Shown here: positions 29,441-34,946 of the stretch, piece by piece
How positions within the stretch are numbered: position 1 is the stretch's first letter
How the letters are laid out: each line of letters begins with the position of its first letter
NCBI RefSeq assembly: GCF_040215725.1
Contig: NZ_CP157968.1
Coordinates: 1,302,001-1,366,000 of the forward strand
Source: Rhizobium sp. ZPR4
Lineage (GTDB): Bacteria > Pseudomonadota > Alphaproteobacteria > Rhizobiales > Rhizobiaceae
Reading direction: 5' to 3'
Length of the DNA: 64,000 nucleotides
Position numbers and translations under genes: made by a program
Notes under the pieces: model-generated
Told to the model about the DNA's origin: nothing
The model's input: the letters and a program-made list of their open reading frames with translations, nothing else
The model's database searches: none

Positions 29441-30274
29441 ATGACGAGCATCTACTCGATCTCATCGAGCAATTACTATCAATACCAGACCTCGCGCTCG
29501 ACAGCGTCGACGGCTGATGATTCCATCGCATCCCTGCTGTCTGACAGCTCCTCCGGCAATTCGTCGGGCAGCTCTTCCGGCACGAGCTCCTCTTCGTCTT
29601 CGGACGATCAGTCTCAGATCGCTTCGGCAGAACAGCTCGTCGCGCAGCTGATGAACATGATTCTCAATATGCAGGCCGGCACCGGCAGCGATAGCTCGAC
29701 ATCGGATTCCGACAGCAACTCCACCAGTTCGACGTCAAGCACTCAGCAGGCTTCCGCAACCGGTACCCAGGATAGCAGCCAAAGCGATATGATCAGCGCC
29801 ATGGACACCAATGGCGACGGCAATGTCAGCGAGGCGGAATTCGTGGCCGCGCGCCCGTCGGACGTCAGCGAAACTCAGGCGCAGCAATTGTTCCAGAGCT
29901 TCGACACCAGCAATACCGGCTCTCTCACCGAAGCGCAGCTTGCGAAAGCCATGCAGGCGGGCCAGCAGCAACCCCCACCACCGCCGGGTGGCCAGATGAG
30001 CGACGATGACCTCTCTGCCGCGTTTTCCTCCATGGATACGAACGGCGACGGCAGCGTCAGCGAATCCGAATTCGTGGCTGCCCGTCCTTCCGACGTAAGC
30101 GAAGATCAGGCAACGTCGCTGTTCAAGAGCCTCGACACGTCTGGTTCCGGGTCGTTGACGCAGACCCAGTTCGAACAGGCCATGAAGGCACAGCAATCGC
30201 AGATGCCGGATTTCGGAAGCTTCTACTCGAACAATGAACAGGATCAGACGACGAGCGATCTGCTGACGCTCTGA
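29441..30274 (+). CDS. Ser-rich EF-hand calcium-binding protein
   Basis: 277 aa from the ATG at 29441 (GGAGG just upstream). Residues 1-110 are low complexity, mostly Ser/Thr/Gly/Asp/Gln. Then come two EF-hand pairs: canonical loops D122-TNGDGNVSEAEF and D199-TNGDGSVSESEF, each followed by a degenerate partner (DTSNTGSLTEAQL from 155; DTSGSGSLTQTQF from 232). Both canonical loops continue VAARPSDVSE, so the pair is an internal duplication. A P-rich linker (QQQPPPPPGG) separates them. No signal peptide; secretion through another route is possible but unproven. Function unknown, probably calcium sensing or buffering. Confidence 0.85.
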   Translation: MTSIYSISSSNYYQYQTSRSTASTADDSIASLLSDSSSGNSSGSSSGTSSSSSSDDQSQIASAEQLVAQLMNMILNMQAGTGSDSSTSDSDSNSTSSTSSTQQASATGTQDSSQSDMISAMDTNGDGNVSEAEFVAARPSDVSETQAQQLFQSFDTSNTGSLTEAQLAKAMQAGQQQPPPPPGGQMSDDDLSAAFSSMDTNGDGSVSESEFVAARPSDVSEDQATSLFKSLDTSGSGSLTQTQFEQAMKAQQSQMPDFGSFYSNNEQDQTTSDLLTL

Positions 30275-30636
30275 TCGAGCTTGAGCTTTCGCATTTCACC
30301 ATGCGAAGTGCCGGCAAGCCCGGGTAGGGGAGGTTCAAACTCCCGCCTCCGGGTGAGCCGGCTCTTCTGTTTTTGCCTGATATTTTTAGCTGATAGATGG
30401 CCTTTGGGCTCGAAAAGAAAATTCGAAAACCCTCGACATGAAAGCGACGGAATTCGGCAAGTGCAGCGTTCAATCCCTGTGAGCCTGTGTTTGATGTCGA
30501 AGGATGATACGCTGACCGAGATGCTGCGATCTGAATGGCGCCGCTTGCCGGAGTTGGCGGCGAGGCGGGATCTGCCGGCCAAAAGGTCAAGGCCCGCATG
30601 TCATGCCGGTATCGCAGGAAACTGGAGCGGTAGCGA
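30275..30636. other. 362-bp intergenic region before the ECF sigma gene
   Basis: Holds a small hairpin TTCGCAT/ATGCGAA (about 30292-30307), the multi-segment hairpin at 30310-30374, and about 260 bp that should contain the sigma-factor promoter. I see no convincing GGAAC-N16/17-CGTT ECF promoter. No gene seen. Confidence 0.5.
30310..30374 (+). terminator. Multi-segment hairpin with U-tract after the EF-hand gene
   Basis: Three stacked complementary segments: GCCGGC (310-315) with GCCGGC (357-362), CCCGG (319-323) with CCGGG (349-353), and GGGAG (328-332) with CTCCC (340-344) round a 7-nt loop; then CTTCTGTTTTT. The T-run ends the stem on the plus strand only. Probably the terminator of the EF-hand gene, but more elaborate than usual. 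Confidence 0.6.
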
Positions 30637-31215
30637 TTGTCGATGAAGTGGGATCGCGTGCCCAAGAGTGGCGACCCGGATGAGGACCTGCTCGGTCGTA
30701 TCGCTGCGGGCGATGTTCCAGCGATGCGCATGATGATAACACGGCAGTTGCCGCGCATCGTTGCCGTGGCGACCCGCATGCTTGGCGATGCCGCCGAGGC
30801 CGAGGATGTGGCGCAGGAGACGTTCCTGCGCGTCTGGCGGAATGCCGGCGGCTGGCGCCAGGGCAATGCCCGCTTCAGTACCTGGGTGCATCGCGTGGCG
30901 ACCAACCTTTGTTATGATCGCCTGCGGCGTCGCAAAGACGTTCTTGCCGAGCATCCACCCGATATCGAGTATGAAGGGCCGGCGCCGGATGCGGGTTTGA
31001 TGAGCGAGGACGATCCGTCCAAGCGCGTGGAGCGGGCCATGCAGATGATCGCGCCCAGGCAGCGTGAGGCGATCATTCTGGTTTACTATCAGGCGCTGTC
31101 GAATGCCGAGGCAGCTGAGGTCATGGATGTCAGCGTCGACGCACTGGAAAGCCTGCTTGCGCGTGGAAGGCGCTCCTTGCAGGTGCTTTTGTTGAAGGAA
31201 CAGGGCGATGGTTGA
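30637..31215 (+). CDS. ECF-type RNA polymerase sigma factor
   Basis: 192 aa. Region 2: DLLGRIAAGDVPAMRMMITRQLPRIVAVATRMLGDAAEAEDVAQETFLRVWRNAGGWRQGNARFSTWVHRVATNLCYDRLRRRK. Region 4: AMQMIAPRQREAIILVYYQALSNAEAAEVMDVSVDALESLLARGRRSLQVLL. Regions 1.1 and 3 are absent, as in ECF sigmas. The 3' end overlaps the next gene by 8 bp, and the product downstream is a single-pass membrane protein, the usual sigma/anti-sigma layout. I chose the TTG at 30637 with GGAG 9 nt upstream; the ATG at 30643 (GGAG 15 nt away) is the alternative. Confidence 0.9.
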   Translation: MSMKWDRVPKSGDPDEDLLGRIAAGDVPAMRMMITRQLPRIVAVATRMLGDAAEAEDVAQETFLRVWRNAGGWRQGNARFSTWVHRVATNLCYDRLRRRKDVLAEHPPDIEYEGPAPDAGLMSEDDPSKRVERAMQMIAPRQREAIILVYYQALSNAEAAEVMDVSVDALESLLARGRRSLQVLLLKEQGDG

Positions 31216-31660
31216 GAATATCGCGGGTCCGATGAATGCCGAACGGTTTGAGGCGCTGACCGCGGCCTATGGCGGCGATATCGGCCGATGGCCGCAGGCG
31301 GAGCGCGCGGCCGCACGGGATTTTGCCAGGAGCCACGCCGCCACCGAAATGCTGGTACGCGCGGCCGATCTCGACGCATTGCTCGACACCTACGTCGTGA
31401 AGCCTCGCCACGCTGGCCTGGAAGAGCGAATCCTCGCAAAGCTCGTTCGCCGCCTGACGATACGAAACTGGTTCCGCTTCGGCTCTGCCGGCATCGGCCT
31501 CGTGGGGGTCGGCATAGCCGGCGCGCTTGCCGGCAGCATTGCCATCGCCATCTTGGCCCCGAGCTTGACGTCCGATACCTCAGTCGTCTCCGACGGAACC
31601 ACGACCATGTTCGGCGATATCGGGCCGGACGCGGGTATAGCGCAGCAGGACAGCCAATGA
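31208..31660 (+). CDS. Single-pass membrane protein, probable anti-sigma factor
   Basis: 150 aa. A cytoplasmic N-terminal ~90 residues (NAERFEALTAAYGGDIGRWPQAERAAARDFARSH) precede a membrane helix at about 93-116 (GSAGIGLVGVGIAGALAGSIAIAILAP) and a short periplasmic tail. The gene overlaps the sigma gene and its stop overlaps the next start (ATGA), so all three are translated as a unit. The layout is that of an ECF anti-sigma, but there is no zinc-binding HxxxCxxC motif, so it is not of the ZAS type. The role is inferred from position and topology. Confidence 0.65.
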   Translation: MVENIAGPMNAERFEALTAAYGGDIGRWPQAERAAARDFARSHAATEMLVRAADLDALLDTYVVKPRHAGLEERILAKLVRRLTIRNWFRFGSAGIGLVGVGIAGALAGSIAIAILAPSLTSDTSVVSDGTTTMFGDIGPDAGIAQQDSQ

Positions 31661-32106
31661 CGGATCGCAGCTTTCGAATAGTGGTCATTTCTCTTTTGGT
31701 GCTGAACACCTTCCTGATCGGGGCATTGGCCGGCGGCGGGCTGACCTGGATACGCAAGACGCAGGCGCGGGCCGGAATGATGCCGCTAGCCGGCGAGCAA
31801 TTGCCTTCGGCGCAGAAGAAGGCTTTGCGCGCGGCGCTCAATGAGGCACGCAAGGACGAACGTCAGATCATTCTCGAGGCACAGCAGGCCAAGGTCGACG
31901 CCGCCTCCATTCTTGGGCAGCCGACGCTGGACAAAGAGGCACTCTCGGCGGCGCTGGCAAGGGCGCGCGACGCCGATATCGCCTTGAGGGCGAAGCTGGA
32001 GCAGCGTGCGGTCGATTTCGCAGCAGGGCTCTCCTATGACGAGCGCCGGGCACTTGCCGGAAGCCTGGTCCGCCGTGTCGTCCCCAAGGCAGCCGCCACA
32101 AAATGA
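31657..32106 (+). CDS. Periplasmic metal-sensor-like protein (Metal_resist/CnrX type)
   Basis: 149 aa from an ATG overlapping the previous stop. An N-terminal membrane anchor (RIVVISLLVLNTFLIGALAGGGLTWI) is followed by an all-helical periplasmic domain: LPSAQKKALRAALNEARKDERQIILEAQQAKVDAASILGQPTLDKEALSAALARARDADIALRAKLEQRAVDFAAGLSYDERRALAGSLV. This resembles the four-helix hooks of the Metal_resist/CnrX/Spy-like families that sense periplasmic stress or metal next to an ECF sigma and anti-sigma (as in CnrYXH). Few His, Met or Cys are seen, so metal binding is doubtful. It may instead sense misfolding or another signal. Confidence 0.65.
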   Translation: MTDRSFRIVVISLLVLNTFLIGALAGGGLTWIRKTQARAGMMPLAGEQLPSAQKKALRAALNEARKDERQIILEAQQAKVDAASILGQPTLDKEALSAALARARDADIALRAKLEQRAVDFAAGLSYDERRALAGSLVRRVVPKAAATK

Positions 32107-32181
32107 TCATAGTTGCCGAGCGACGGATCGAAACCAGGCCTGCGTTAAAGGAGCATGTTTGAATCAGGAGTTGCCAAGGCC

Positions 32182-33723
32182 ATGGCTGAGCAGTCCAATG
32201 ATGTTTATGCCGCGCTCGCTCTTTCCCGCTTTGGGCTAGGGGCAGACCATAACGGCACCACGTCGATCGCAGCCGATCCGCGCGGTGCGCTGCTGGAAGA
32301 AATAACCGAGCGCTTCGTCCCGGTTCCGGTCGGGCCTCAGCTACAATCGACAGCCGATCTTCTCGTTTCTCTCTACGCATTCCAGGAACAGCGCAAGGAA
32401 GCCAGACAGCAGGCTTCGGCCGCTGTCGCCGCCGTGCCGCAGGACAAGCAGATGCAAGGCCCGCAACAGCCGCAGAAGCCGCCGGTACAGCCTTCCGGCG
32501 CCATGGCAGGGCAACCGAGCAGCCAGGCAATGGCCACTCAGCCGAACAACCAAGCCATGGCGGCTGTCATCGGCAAAGCAGTCGAGAAGCTGGAAAAGCC
32601 CGCAATGCCTTACCTTCCACAGCAAATCCTGCTGGCGGAAGTGGATGCCCGCTTCAACGGCACCATCCGGCAGCCATTGATCGGCTTTGGCGAGCGTCTT
32701 GCTATGTTCTGGGCAAATCATTTCGCGGTCGCCGTCTCGAAGAGCGAGGAAGTTCATATCGTTGCCGGCGCCTTCGAGCGCGAAGCGATCCGGCCGCACG
32801 TCTTTGGGCGTTTCGCCGATATGCTGCTTGCTGTCGAGACCCATCCGGCCATGCTCGGCTATCTCGACAACCAGCAATCGATCGGGCCGAACTCCAAGGC
32901 TAACGCCAACAAGAAGCGTGGTCTGAACGAGAATCTTGCCCGCGAGACGTTGGAGCTCCACACGCTCGGTGTCAACGGCGGCTACACGCAGGCCGACGTG
33001 ACGACGCTTGCCAAGATCATCACGGGCTGGACGGTGGCACGCGCCGAGGGCAAGCTTGGGACACCCGGCACCTTCGTCTTCAACGCCGGCGCCCACGAGC
33101 CCGGCGACCAGACGTTGCTCGGTCTCACCTATGCCGACAATGGTGTGGGGCAGGGGCGTGAAGCGCTGCGCGATCTCGCCCGCCATCCGGCGACGGCGCA
33201 GCATATCGCCACCAAGCTTGTCCGGCATTTCGTTGCCGACACGCCGCCGCCGGGACTCGTGCAGGCCGTCGCTGCGACCTTCAGCAAGACCGACGGTGAT
33301 CTTTCGGCCGTCTATCGGGCGCTCATCGGCTCCGAAGATGCATGGAACCCGACACTTTCGAAGGTGCGTTCACCGCTGGAATTCATGACCGCGCTTCTGC
33401 GGGCAAGCGGCGAGACGCCGAAGCCGAATGTCATTCTCGGCGCTTTGACCGCCATGGGTCAGCCCTTCTGGGCGCCGGCGGGTCCCAATGGCTTTGCCGA
33501 TACCGTCGATGTATGGGCCTCCAGCGAGAGCCTCAGCATGCGCATGGATGTCGCCAATATGATCGCCAATGCGGTGCCGCCCCAGATCGATCCGCGCCGC
33601 TTCGTTTCAGACAGCCTGGGGCCGCTTCTCTCGAAGGAAACGCTGCAGGCGGTATCGCGCGCGGAGACCCGCAATCAAGGCCTGACGATCGCTTATCTTT
33701 CCCCCGAATTTCAAAGGCGCTGA
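32182..33723 (+). CDS. DUF1800-family protein
   Basis: 513 aa from the ATG at 32182 (AGGAG 11 nt upstream); the ATG at 32155 has an AAGGAG too close to use. The family core is plain: ALALSRFGLGAD near the start, ERLAMFWANHFAV, NENLARETLELHTLGVNGGYTQADVTTLAKIITGWTVA, HEPGDQTLLG, HIATKLVRHFVAD. It has an inserted low-complexity Gln/Pro/Met/Ala stretch of about 60 residues (ASAAVAAVPQ...NNQAMAAV). No signal peptide is visible, though the partner protein downstream has one. DUF1800 and DUF1501 genes are nearly always adjacent and have no known biochemical activity. Confidence 0.85.
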   Translation: MAEQSNDVYAALALSRFGLGADHNGTTSIAADPRGALLEEITERFVPVPVGPQLQSTADLLVSLYAFQEQRKEARQQASAAVAAVPQDKQMQGPQQPQKPPVQPSGAMAGQPSSQAMATQPNNQAMAAVIGKAVEKLEKPAMPYLPQQILLAEVDARFNGTIRQPLIGFGERLAMFWANHFAVAVSKSEEVHIVAGAFEREAIRPHVFGRFADMLLAVETHPAMLGYLDNQQSIGPNSKANANKKRGLNENLARETLELHTLGVNGGYTQADVTTLAKIITGWTVARAEGKLGTPGTFVFNAGAHEPGDQTLLGLTYADNGVGQGREALRDLARHPATAQHIATKLVRHFVADTPPPGLVQAVAATFSKTDGDLSAVYRALIGSEDAWNPTLSKVRSPLEFMTALLRASGETPKPNVILGALTAMGQPFWAPAGPNGFADTVDVWASSESLSMRMDVANMIANAVPPQIDPRRFVSDSLGPLLSKETLQAVSRAETRNQGLTIAYLSPEFQRR

Positions 33724-33725
33724 CC

Positions 33726-34946
33726 ATGACCTGCGAACTCATGACCCCCACCCGTCGTGCCGTGCTTGGTGCTTCAGGCGCCTTGTTTGCCTGGGCTTTC
33801 ATCCCACGCTTTGCCCATGCCGCCGGCGGACGCGACCCGCGTTTCATCACGATCATCCTGCGTGGTGCGCTCGATGGCCTGACCGCTGTTCCGCCGGTCG
33901 GCGACCCCGATTATCAGGCGCTGCGGCAGTCGATCGCGATGACGACGAGCGGCCCGGAGGCGGCTCTTCCGCTCGACAGTTTCTTCGCGCTGCATCCGTC
34001 GATGCCGAATTTCAACCGGCTCTATCGAGCCGGGCAGGCAGCAGTCGTGCATGCCAGCGCGACACCCTATCGCGACCGGTCGCATTTCGACGGCCAGGAC
34101 GTGCTCGAATCGGGCTATGAAATGCCTGGTCGCGTTGAATCCGGCTGGCTGAACCGGATGCTGGAGGGCCTGCCGAAGGGCGACAAGGTTTCTCCTGGCG
34201 CATCGGAGATTCGTGGACTGTCCGTCGGTGCCAACGCACCGCTCGTCATTCGCGGCAAGGCGCCGGTGCTCGGCTGGTCGCCGTCCAATCTGCAGCCGGT
34301 CAGTGACGATCTGCCGCCGCGTCTGATGGATCTTTACAATCACACCGACCCGCTATTTGCAAAGATCCTCGCCGAAGGCATTTCGACCGGCAAGATCGCC
34401 GCTGGTCTTGATGTCAAGGCAAGAGGCGGCCCCGGCGACCCCACCGGCATGGAACAGATGGCGAGAGGTGCCGCCCGGCTGTTGGCGCAGGACGACGGCC
34501 CCCGCGTCGCGGCATTGGCCTTCGAAGGATGGGATACCCATGCCGGCGAGGTGGACCGGCTGAACAAGCTTCTTGTCGGGCTCGATAATTCCTTTGCGGC
34601 GTTCCAGCAGGAACTTGGCCCAGCCTGGAAGGATACCGCCATCTTCGTTGCGACCGAATTCGGCCGTACCGCACAGGTCAATGGCACGCAGGGCACCGAT
34701 CATGGCACTGGCACCGCCGCCTTCCTCGCAGGCGGCGCGATCAAGGGCGGTCGGGTGATTGCCGATTGGCCTGGTCTCAAGCAGGCGCAGCTGCGCGATG
34801 GCCGCGATCTTGCCGCCACCACGGATCTGCGCGCTGTCGTCAAGGGGATCGCGGTCGATCTGTTGGGGGCCTCGCCGGCTGTCTTGACGCGGGATGTCTT
34901 TCCCGGATCCGACCATGTCCTGCCGATGAAAGGGCTGATCGTCTGA
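33726..34946 (+). CDS. DUF1501-family protein with Tat-type signal
   Basis: 406 aa. N-terminus TPTRRAVLGASGALFAWAFIPRFAHAAGG has the twin-arginine, hydrophobic core and AxA cleavage site of a Tat substrate. The mature part shows the alkaline-phosphatase/sulfatase-like fold: FITIILRGALDGLTAVPPVGDPDY, SRHFDGQDVLESG-like (RSHFDGQDVLESGYE), FEGWDTHAGEV, FVATEFGRTAQVNGTQGTDHGTGTAAFLAGGAIKGG. The Asp/His residues in those motifs suggest a metal-dependent hydrolase. It follows the DUF1800 gene by 2 bp. Enzymatic substrate unknown. Confidence 0.85.
   Translation: MTCELMTPTRRAVLGASGALFAWAFIPRFAHAAGGRDPRFITIILRGALDGLTAVPPVGDPDYQALRQSIAMTTSGPEAALPLDSFFALHPSMPNFNRLYRAGQAAVVHASATPYRDRSHFDGQDVLESGYEMPGRVESGWLNRMLEGLPKGDKVSPGASEIRGLSVGANAPLVIRGKAPVLGWSPSNLQPVSDDLPPRLMDLYNHTDPLFAKILAEGISTGKIAAGLDVKARGGPGDPTGMEQMARGAARLLAQDDGPRVAALAFEGWDTHAGEVDRLNKLLVGLDNSFAAFQQELGPAWKDTAIFVATEFGRTAQVNGTQGTDHGTGTAAFLAGGAIKGGRVIADWPGLKQAQLRDGRDLAATTDLRAVVKGIAVDLLGASPAVLTRDVFPGSDHVLPMKGLIV

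Follow-up and report, generated by a model that had tools for sequence, protein, structure and literature searches.

The CnrYXH system of Cupriavidus consists of an extracytoplasmic function (ECF) sigma factor, an anti-sigma factor with one membrane helix and an anchored sensor of the Metal_resist type, CnrX, which has His/Met metal ligands. In Caulobacter vibrioides, the ECF sigma factor SigV drives cabp, the gene of an EF-hand protein (CaBP), and both respond to acid and EGTA; acid and calcium chelation induce SigV, and its membrane link or anti-sigma factor is given as not known and marked by a question mark (PMC13171946, 2026). According to the same paper, deletion of sigV strongly lowers cabp promoter activity, SigT is reported to activate sigV, and extracellular matrix is increased in a cabp mutant. 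Some bacteria were described as having a conserved operon with the genes of DUF1800, DUF1501 and chitin synthase (PMC5122149), and the ECF sigma factors RpoE1-10 and FecI of S. meliloti were described with anti-sigma partners (PMC6180224). Here, a window of 64,000 nucleotides (64 kb) from Rhizobium sp. ZPR4 (contig NZ_CP157968.1, positions 1,302,001 to 1,366,000 of the forward strand; the coordinates below are those of the window) was analysed for five plus-strand genes, encoding an ECF sigma factor, a putative anti-sigma factor (gene 2), a putative periplasmic sensor (gene 3), a DUF1800 protein and a DUF1501 protein, respectively. A promoter-like site common to the sigma and DUF1800 genes suggests that the sigma factor controls the DUF1800-DUF1501 pair, a reading to which we give a probability of about three in four.

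The locus shares with CaBP-SigV the sigma group and, apparently, the promoter type. It differs in that an EF-hand CaBP gene precedes the sigma gene in Caulobacter, Mesorhizobium and others, whereas the Rhizobium sigma operon is without one, and in that DUF1800-DUF1501 is joined to it in Rhizobium, whereas the part of PMC13171946 considered here names no anti-sigma factor, sensor or DUF target. With CnrYXH it has in common an ECF sigma factor, a one-helix protein beside sigma factor and sensor, and an anchored Metal_resist-type sensor; the gene order differs, the sensor here is without His ligands, and the sites of the type found here were not found before efflux genes. As in the chitin synthase operon, both DUF families stand side by side with a twin-arginine motif on DUF1501, but the window has an adjacent ECF sigma gene and no chitin synthase among the neighbours scanned (PMC5122149). 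Like the S. meliloti systems, this is a rhizobial ECF sigma factor with a putative anti-sigma partner; the two S. meliloti motifs compared, ECF26 (GGAATA/GT) and ECF29 (GGGAAC/GCATCCAA), differ from CGACGGA/CGTT (PMC6180224).

The shared promoter-like site

By reading the gaps, a common sequence, CGACGGA-N15/16-CGTT-n-AA, was found before the sigma gene (CGACGGA-N15-CGTTCAA, 30445..30473, +) and before the DUF1800 gene (CGACGGA-N15-CGTTAAA, 32121..32149, +). A pattern scan of the window gave exactly two sites, at those two places, with 0.01 expected from shuffles. For the comparison with relatives, the best 80 of 581 were used as the named loci, a sample that leans to close kin. In the 22 named loci with all five genes, the exact site (spacer 14-16, CGTTnAA) was present on the DUF1800 side in 21 and on the sigma side (up to 1200 bp upstream of the sigma gene, or of the EF-hand gene leading its operon) likewise in 21, and with one mismatch allowed both sites were present in 22/22; the shuffled controls gave 0/880. 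A promoter-like site of ECF type common to both genes in relatives, which a preliminary description of this DNA had proposed as something to look for, was thus found. The exact site also preceded DUF1800 in 4/4 of the linked Rhizobiaceae loci besides the window.

The second site lies inside the 75-bp gap (32107-32181) between the sensor gene and DUF1800. A separate promoter in this gap had been named in the preliminary description as a sign against the proposed link; a site is present there to the letter, but it shares its ECF type with the site before the sigma gene and therefore supports the link between the sigma factor and the pair. Between 30200 and 35300, sigma-70-like sites (2 versus 0.7 in shuffles) and terminator-like sites (4 versus 4.0) were both near shuffle level, with none of either kind in the gap. 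Because each half has its own ECF-type site, a single five-gene transcript as the sole arrangement was rejected; read-through between the halves may still occur.

The pair-only loci (58 of the named loci, without this trio) gave the exact site in 0/58 and a one-mismatch site in 1/58, or 0/49 and 1/49, respectively, when at least 3 kb of upstream DNA was available; in the other nine, with less than 3 kb, the trio and the site are not fully judgeable, and one of these (L063) has sigma and anti-sigma genes at another contig end. The sole one-mismatch locus (L129) belongs to a genome that carries the sigma factor. The looser pattern (spacer 13-17, CGTTnA) that was used for the sigma-locus and unlinked-pair scans below left these counts unchanged (0/49 exact, 1/49 with one mismatch).

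A scan of the whole window genome (7.7 Mb, spacer 14-17) gave 7 exact sites versus 1 in the control. In 14 genomes that were selected for having the module (spacer 14-16), 35 exact sites were found, of which 26 were in the sigma neighbourhood (one of them, in G088, facing away from the operon) and 9 were off-locus, fewer than the 14 from the reversed-pattern control. The positions left free by the pattern were informative in 92 distinct sites, with A in 96% after CGACGG and A in 91% at the -10 end.

Unlinked pairs and distribution of the genes

The best argument for control of the pair by the sigma factor is the sites kept at unlinked pairs, because neighbourhood cannot explain them. The pair was present in 9/14 genomes (drawn from Caulobacteraceae, with two more taken from the search of the class), always on another contig than the sigma gene or more than 400 kb away. 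The exact site preceded these Caulobacteraceae-type pairs in 4/9 and a one-mismatch site in 3 more. In the four exact cases (G257, G206, G224, G261) the site starts 67 bp before a shared start-codon position, at which two further genomes have a one-mismatch site (65-67 bp overall); among the three Asticcacaulis genomes, a one-mismatch site is present in one, 59 bp upstream of the ATG. The corresponding distance in the window is 61 bp.

With the window DUF1800 and sigma factor as queries, matches were obtained in 22/121 (E<=1e-10) and 7/121 (E<=1e-38) Rhizobiaceae genomes, respectively, all seven being among the 22. The five genes were side by side in 5/7 of the sigma-bearing genomes; in the other two (G009, G113), sigma factor, anti-sigma factor and sensor lie on a different contig from the pair. 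At these unlinked loci (L032, L033, L251, L253), the sites before both the sigma and DUF1800 genes retain CGACGGAT. Among the 21 of 22 DUF1800-bearing Rhizobiaceae genomes that were widely examined (window included, G120 left out), the five genes were together in 5/21 loci, and DUF1800 and DUF1501 were adjacent in the window and in all 20 others. The 22/80 named loci with all five genes belong to Rhizobium, Mesorhizobium, an Alsobacter and Rhizobiales isolates without genus name, so that conservation of the whole set in other Rhizobiales holds for some lineages, but not for most pairs (58/80).

Genomes with the pair and without the module were searched for the sigma factor, and no match at E<=1e-25 was found in 13/16 checked; in the remaining three (Bradyrhizobium; L264, L265, L266), the only match was an ECF sigma factor of 41-44% identity, and the surrounding DNA examined contained no match to the anti-sigma factor, the sensor or an EF-hand. 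In another check of nine pair-only loci, L057, L058 and L071 gave no sigma match at E<=1e-20 and L067 only one of 30% identity.

The sigma factor, gene 2 and the putative sensor

The preliminary description of the five genes proved correct to the base. The sigma gene (30643..31215, +; start at ATG 30643, with TTG 30637 as an alternative) encodes regions 2 and 4 only (PF04542, residues 33-100, E=1e-21; PF08281, residues 130-181, E=8e-13; NCBIfam NF004113). It overlaps gene 2 (31208..31660, +) by 8 bp, and gene 2 overlaps gene 3 (31657..32106, +) by 4 bp (ATGA). The leader between the sigma site and the sigma gene is occupied by a 50-codon open reading frame (MSKDDTLTEMLRSEW..., 30494-30646, +), the stop of which overlaps the sigma ATG; its start is conserved, as judged by eye, in close Rhizobium relatives and not in L056.

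Sigma matches were found in 40/385 genomes of the class (E<=1e-40) and in 119/149 Caulobacteraceae genomes (E<=1e-30), and 59 loci were examined, namely the 29 best-scoring of the 40 class matches (besides the window) and the 30 best-scoring of the 119. An anti-sigma homologue followed the sigma gene in 59 (profile E<=0.01, with weak matches of 18-20 bits in L159 and L167), a sensor in 54 (some loci end early), and an EF-hand-like reading frame (by pattern, not Pfam) preceded it in 44; an upstream site with at most one mismatch was present in 51 and an exact one in 18, counts that carry no shuffle control. In a tree of 97 sigma factors, a 66-row set (support 100/98) unites 27 pair-linked sigma factors with those of Caulobacteraceae. 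Three loci (L223, L225, L226), in which the sigma gene is followed by anti-sigma and sensor matches, agree with the sigV-5 primer of PMC13171946 save for one mismatch. On the tree grouping and the primer matches, the window sigma factor is assigned to the SigV type. Since the signal-peptide EF-hand CaBP gene that comes first in the sigma operon elsewhere is absent in the window, this is a SigV-type sigma factor and not a full CaBP-SigV module.

The cabp promoter was mapped by 5' rapid amplification of cDNA ends to the boxes GGAAA-13-CGTTCA, and it is SigV-dependent (PMC13171946). The cabp forward primer ends in gcgcgacgga, so that the promoter fits CGACGGAAA-N13-CGTTCA and, judged from the printed boxes and the primer end, may be of the same type as the window site; if the two are equal, CGACGGA would be a better -35 element than GGAAA. 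The primer had no exact match in the 149 Caulobacteraceae genomes.

Upstream of the sigma gene, a gene for a Ser-rich EF-hand protein (29441-30274, +) has neither a signal-like stretch nor the site and is found in only 5/10 Rhizobium-type loci (L052, L054, L055, L059, L062); a calcium link through this neighbour was rejected on these three grounds.

Gene 2 has no Pfam or NCBIfam match. By a simple hydropathy scan, its product has a single hydrophobic helix (residues 91-121) between an N-terminal part of about 90 residues, predicted to be cytoplasmic, and a short tail. All of the 100 homologues listed (8000 candidates scored) were without a Pfam domain, and their names were hypothetical or uncharacterized except for one beginning 'Transmembrane anti-sigma fact'; five aligned sequences retain RF, YG, WP and a D...TxF tail. 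A search of the Protein Data Bank (PDB) with the gene-2 alignment matched no CnrY chain at E<=1. From position, topology and co-conservation, gene 2 is a likely candidate for the missing SigV anti-sigma factor.

Gene 3 encodes a Metal_resist (CnrX/Spy-like) protein (PF13801, E=1e-20, 74.7 bits versus a gathering score of 29.2) with an N-terminal helix at residues 4-32, which would anchor it in the membrane as a putative periplasmic sensor. It contains 0 His, 0 Cys and 3 Met and has no CnrX-type His ligands, in line with the earlier remark that metal-ligand clusters are lacking. Five aligned sensors have no invariant His, Cys or Met except M1, and those of 15/22 named five-gene loci have neither His nor Cys. 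Sensors with at least three His were found in 4/22 named loci, 5/30 Caulobacteraceae and 11/24 class-wide, so metal binding elsewhere in the group is possible. No paper joining Metal_resist with an anti-sigma factor was found in the literature searched.

The DUF1800 and DUF1501 proteins

The DUF1800 gene (32182..33723, +; PF08811, E=6e-117, 391.9 bits versus a gathering score of 26.1) gives the single DUF1800 match of the window genome, and its best segment is 99% identical to a protein of Rhizobium rhizogenes 17-2069-2c. It is followed after 2 bp by the DUF1501 gene (33726..34946, +; PF07394, E=3e-36, 125.8 bits versus a gathering score of 27), the product of which begins with a twin-arginine translocation (Tat)-like N-terminus, TRRAVLGASGALFAWAF. 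In 46 DUF1501 proteins, an RRx-hydrophobic motif was present in 46, a hydrophobic 15-mer in 38 and a Pfam TAT_signal match in 3 (a reading by motif, hydropathy and Pfam), and an N-terminal hydrophobic stretch was present in 0/46 DUF1800 proteins. The idea of a secreted pair, or export module, is therefore not supported, the export-type signal being on DUF1501 only. The residues invariant in the 46 DUF1501 sequences (D50, S119-H120-F121-D122, D270, H272, D325 and H326) fit a metallohydrolase, and we take the family to be a member of the AlkP (alkaline phosphatase) clan. PDB sequence searches with five alignments were unproductive and gave no convincing relative of DUF1501.

Other candidate targets

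Exact sites also precede CaBP-type EF-hand genes in Mesorhizobium, Labrys and another genome, the products of which look secreted by eye. Genes for GCG_CRPN small proteins also lie under exact sites: in Mesorhizobium they stand between the sensor gene and DUF1800, and the window genome has one at another place (NF047412 score for one example each), with further cases, named by eye, downstream of the sensor gene in Labrys and beyond the pair in G666; these proteins too look secreted by eye. Three sites in the window genome are weak leads: an exact one (G000:C2:826373-826401, -; L134) before a gene for a small secreted GCG_CRPN protein, another exact one (G000:C2:1611795-1611823, +; L137) before a PsiF-repeat gene (PF07769) with a signal-like N-terminus, and one of spacer 16 before a secreted hydrolase-like reading frame named by eye. 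Most off-locus exact sites (9 of 35 versus 14 in the control) were rejected as chance, including those at SCO1-like genes in two Mesorhizobium genomes.

Discussion

The central proposal of the preliminary description, that the sigma factor turns on the DUF pair, is strongly supported by a shared site that is conserved across genera and kept at unlinked Caulobacter-type pairs. Its description of the module as undescribed holds in part: the sigma factor belongs to the SigV group (PMC13171946, 2026), and what is new here is the likely anti-sigma factor and sensor, the promoter consensus and the DUF pair as a target. In the proposed mechanism, the sigma factor would be bound by gene 2, an anti-sigma factor in the membrane, and gene 3, a helical sensor in the periplasm, would either maintain gene 2 in this binding state or make it let go. 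The sigma factor would be set free on an envelope signal, for which the analogy with Caulobacter makes acid pH or lack of calcium the most likely, and would then join RNA polymerase and start transcription at CGACGGA-N15/16-CGTTnAA. Its own promoter would give positive feedback on sigma factor, anti-sigma factor and sensor, and the second promoter, in the gap, would give expression of DUF1800-DUF1501. DUF1501 would be exported by Tat, probably as an envelope metallohydrolase, and DUF1800 would be its partner, acting on its maturation in the cytoplasm or forming a subunit that is exported together with it. An acid or calcium signal is plausible through the SigV group.

Several points weigh against this reading. 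The connection between sigma factor and site comes from sequence comparison, and the four exact Caulobacter-type cases amount to one lineage, because the sigma tree groups them all in a single 8-row set. G107 and G088 are without an exact site before the sigma gene in the right orientation, 2/3 Asticcacaulis genomes have sigma factor and pair without a site (up to one mismatch) before DUF1800, and Labrys has the sigma module, yet its pair is without the site. In G009 and G113 the -10 element is altered (CGTATC at the sigma gene; CGTCAA or CGTCCA at DUF1800), which looks like a joint change of sigma factor and promoters. The DUF pair does not need this sigma factor, because most of the checked pair-only genomes are without it, and the co-occurrence of sigma factor and DUF1800 (Fisher p=2.7e-6, 121 Rhizobiaceae genomes) is an optimistic figure, because the genomes are related and two of the seven are one genus. 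The calcium reading may not carry over to Rhizobium, since even the best CaBP match in the window genome is poor (E 0.0018). In the Caulobacter paper, another -35 element is assigned and SigT control is claimed too (PMC13171946).

For the last step only, the pair may instead assist in making exopolysaccharide or a chitin-like polymer and not be a free hydrolase, a possibility that is less likely than not. It would suit the operon with chitin synthase (PMC5122149) and the extra matrix of the cabp mutant (PMC13171946); against it, no glycosyltransferase was present among the 8 proteins scanned here, no wider search having been made.

With regard to the sigma factor, it is improbable that the module is a CnrYXH-type system, with a transition metal as the ligand of the Metal_resist protein and metal defence as the output of the sigma factor. 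The three component classes match, gene 3 is a PF13801 protein, some sensors of the wider group have at least three His, and an exact site stands at a SCO1-like gene (copper chaperone, named by eye) in two Mesorhizobium genomes; against this, the window sensor has neither His nor Cys, the five aligned sensors share no invariant ligand residue save M1, no efflux gene was seen under the sites inspected, and the SCO1-like sites, which run into the probable start of that gene, are for this reason improbable as its promoters.

There is a similarly slim chance that an EcfG/SigT-type general stress sigma factor reads the sites and that the adjacent sigma factor has other targets. EcfG-type promoters have GGAAC as the -35 element, whereas CGACGGA stands here, and the exact site is largely confined to the locus of this sigma factor and absent before the pairs of checked genomes without it. 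CGTT is the consensus -10 element of EcfG promoters (PMC7083833) and SigT is a reported activator of sigV, but the strong drop in cabp promoter activity on deletion of sigV speaks for SigV itself (PMC13171946). Chance neighbourhood or hitch-hiking, with the pair regulated otherwise, finds some favour in the 58/80 named pairs that are not beside this sigma factor and is very improbable in view of the shared site conserved over genera and kept at unlinked Caulobacter-type pairs, and of the co-occurrence of the genes.

Beyond control of the pair by the sigma factor, a wider proposal can be offered only tentatively and is more likely wrong than right: the pair would be a principal effector of a calcium/acid envelope stress pathway in Alphaproteobacteria. 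In it, the Metal_resist protein, in the window free of His and Cys, would respond to calcium or protons in the periplasm, together with CaBP in those genomes that have it, and would have the gene-2 family as its anti-sigma factor; DUF1501, as a Tat-exported metallohydrolase, would act with DUF1800 to remodel phosphate- or polymer-linked material of the envelope. In the literature searched, mostly outside subscription journals, no link between this sigma factor and the DUF pair was found; DUF1800 and 'ECF sigma' are mentioned together in a survey of type VI secretion systems, and CCNA_02837/02838 were met with in the Caulobacter SigV paper alone.

Gene 2 also suggests a likely identity for the membrane component shown by a question mark in the Caulobacter SigV paper (PMC13171946). 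DUF1800 and DUF1501 are widespread families of no known function, and a predicted sigma factor with a short, nearly private promoter would be a handle on their role, which becomes directly testable.

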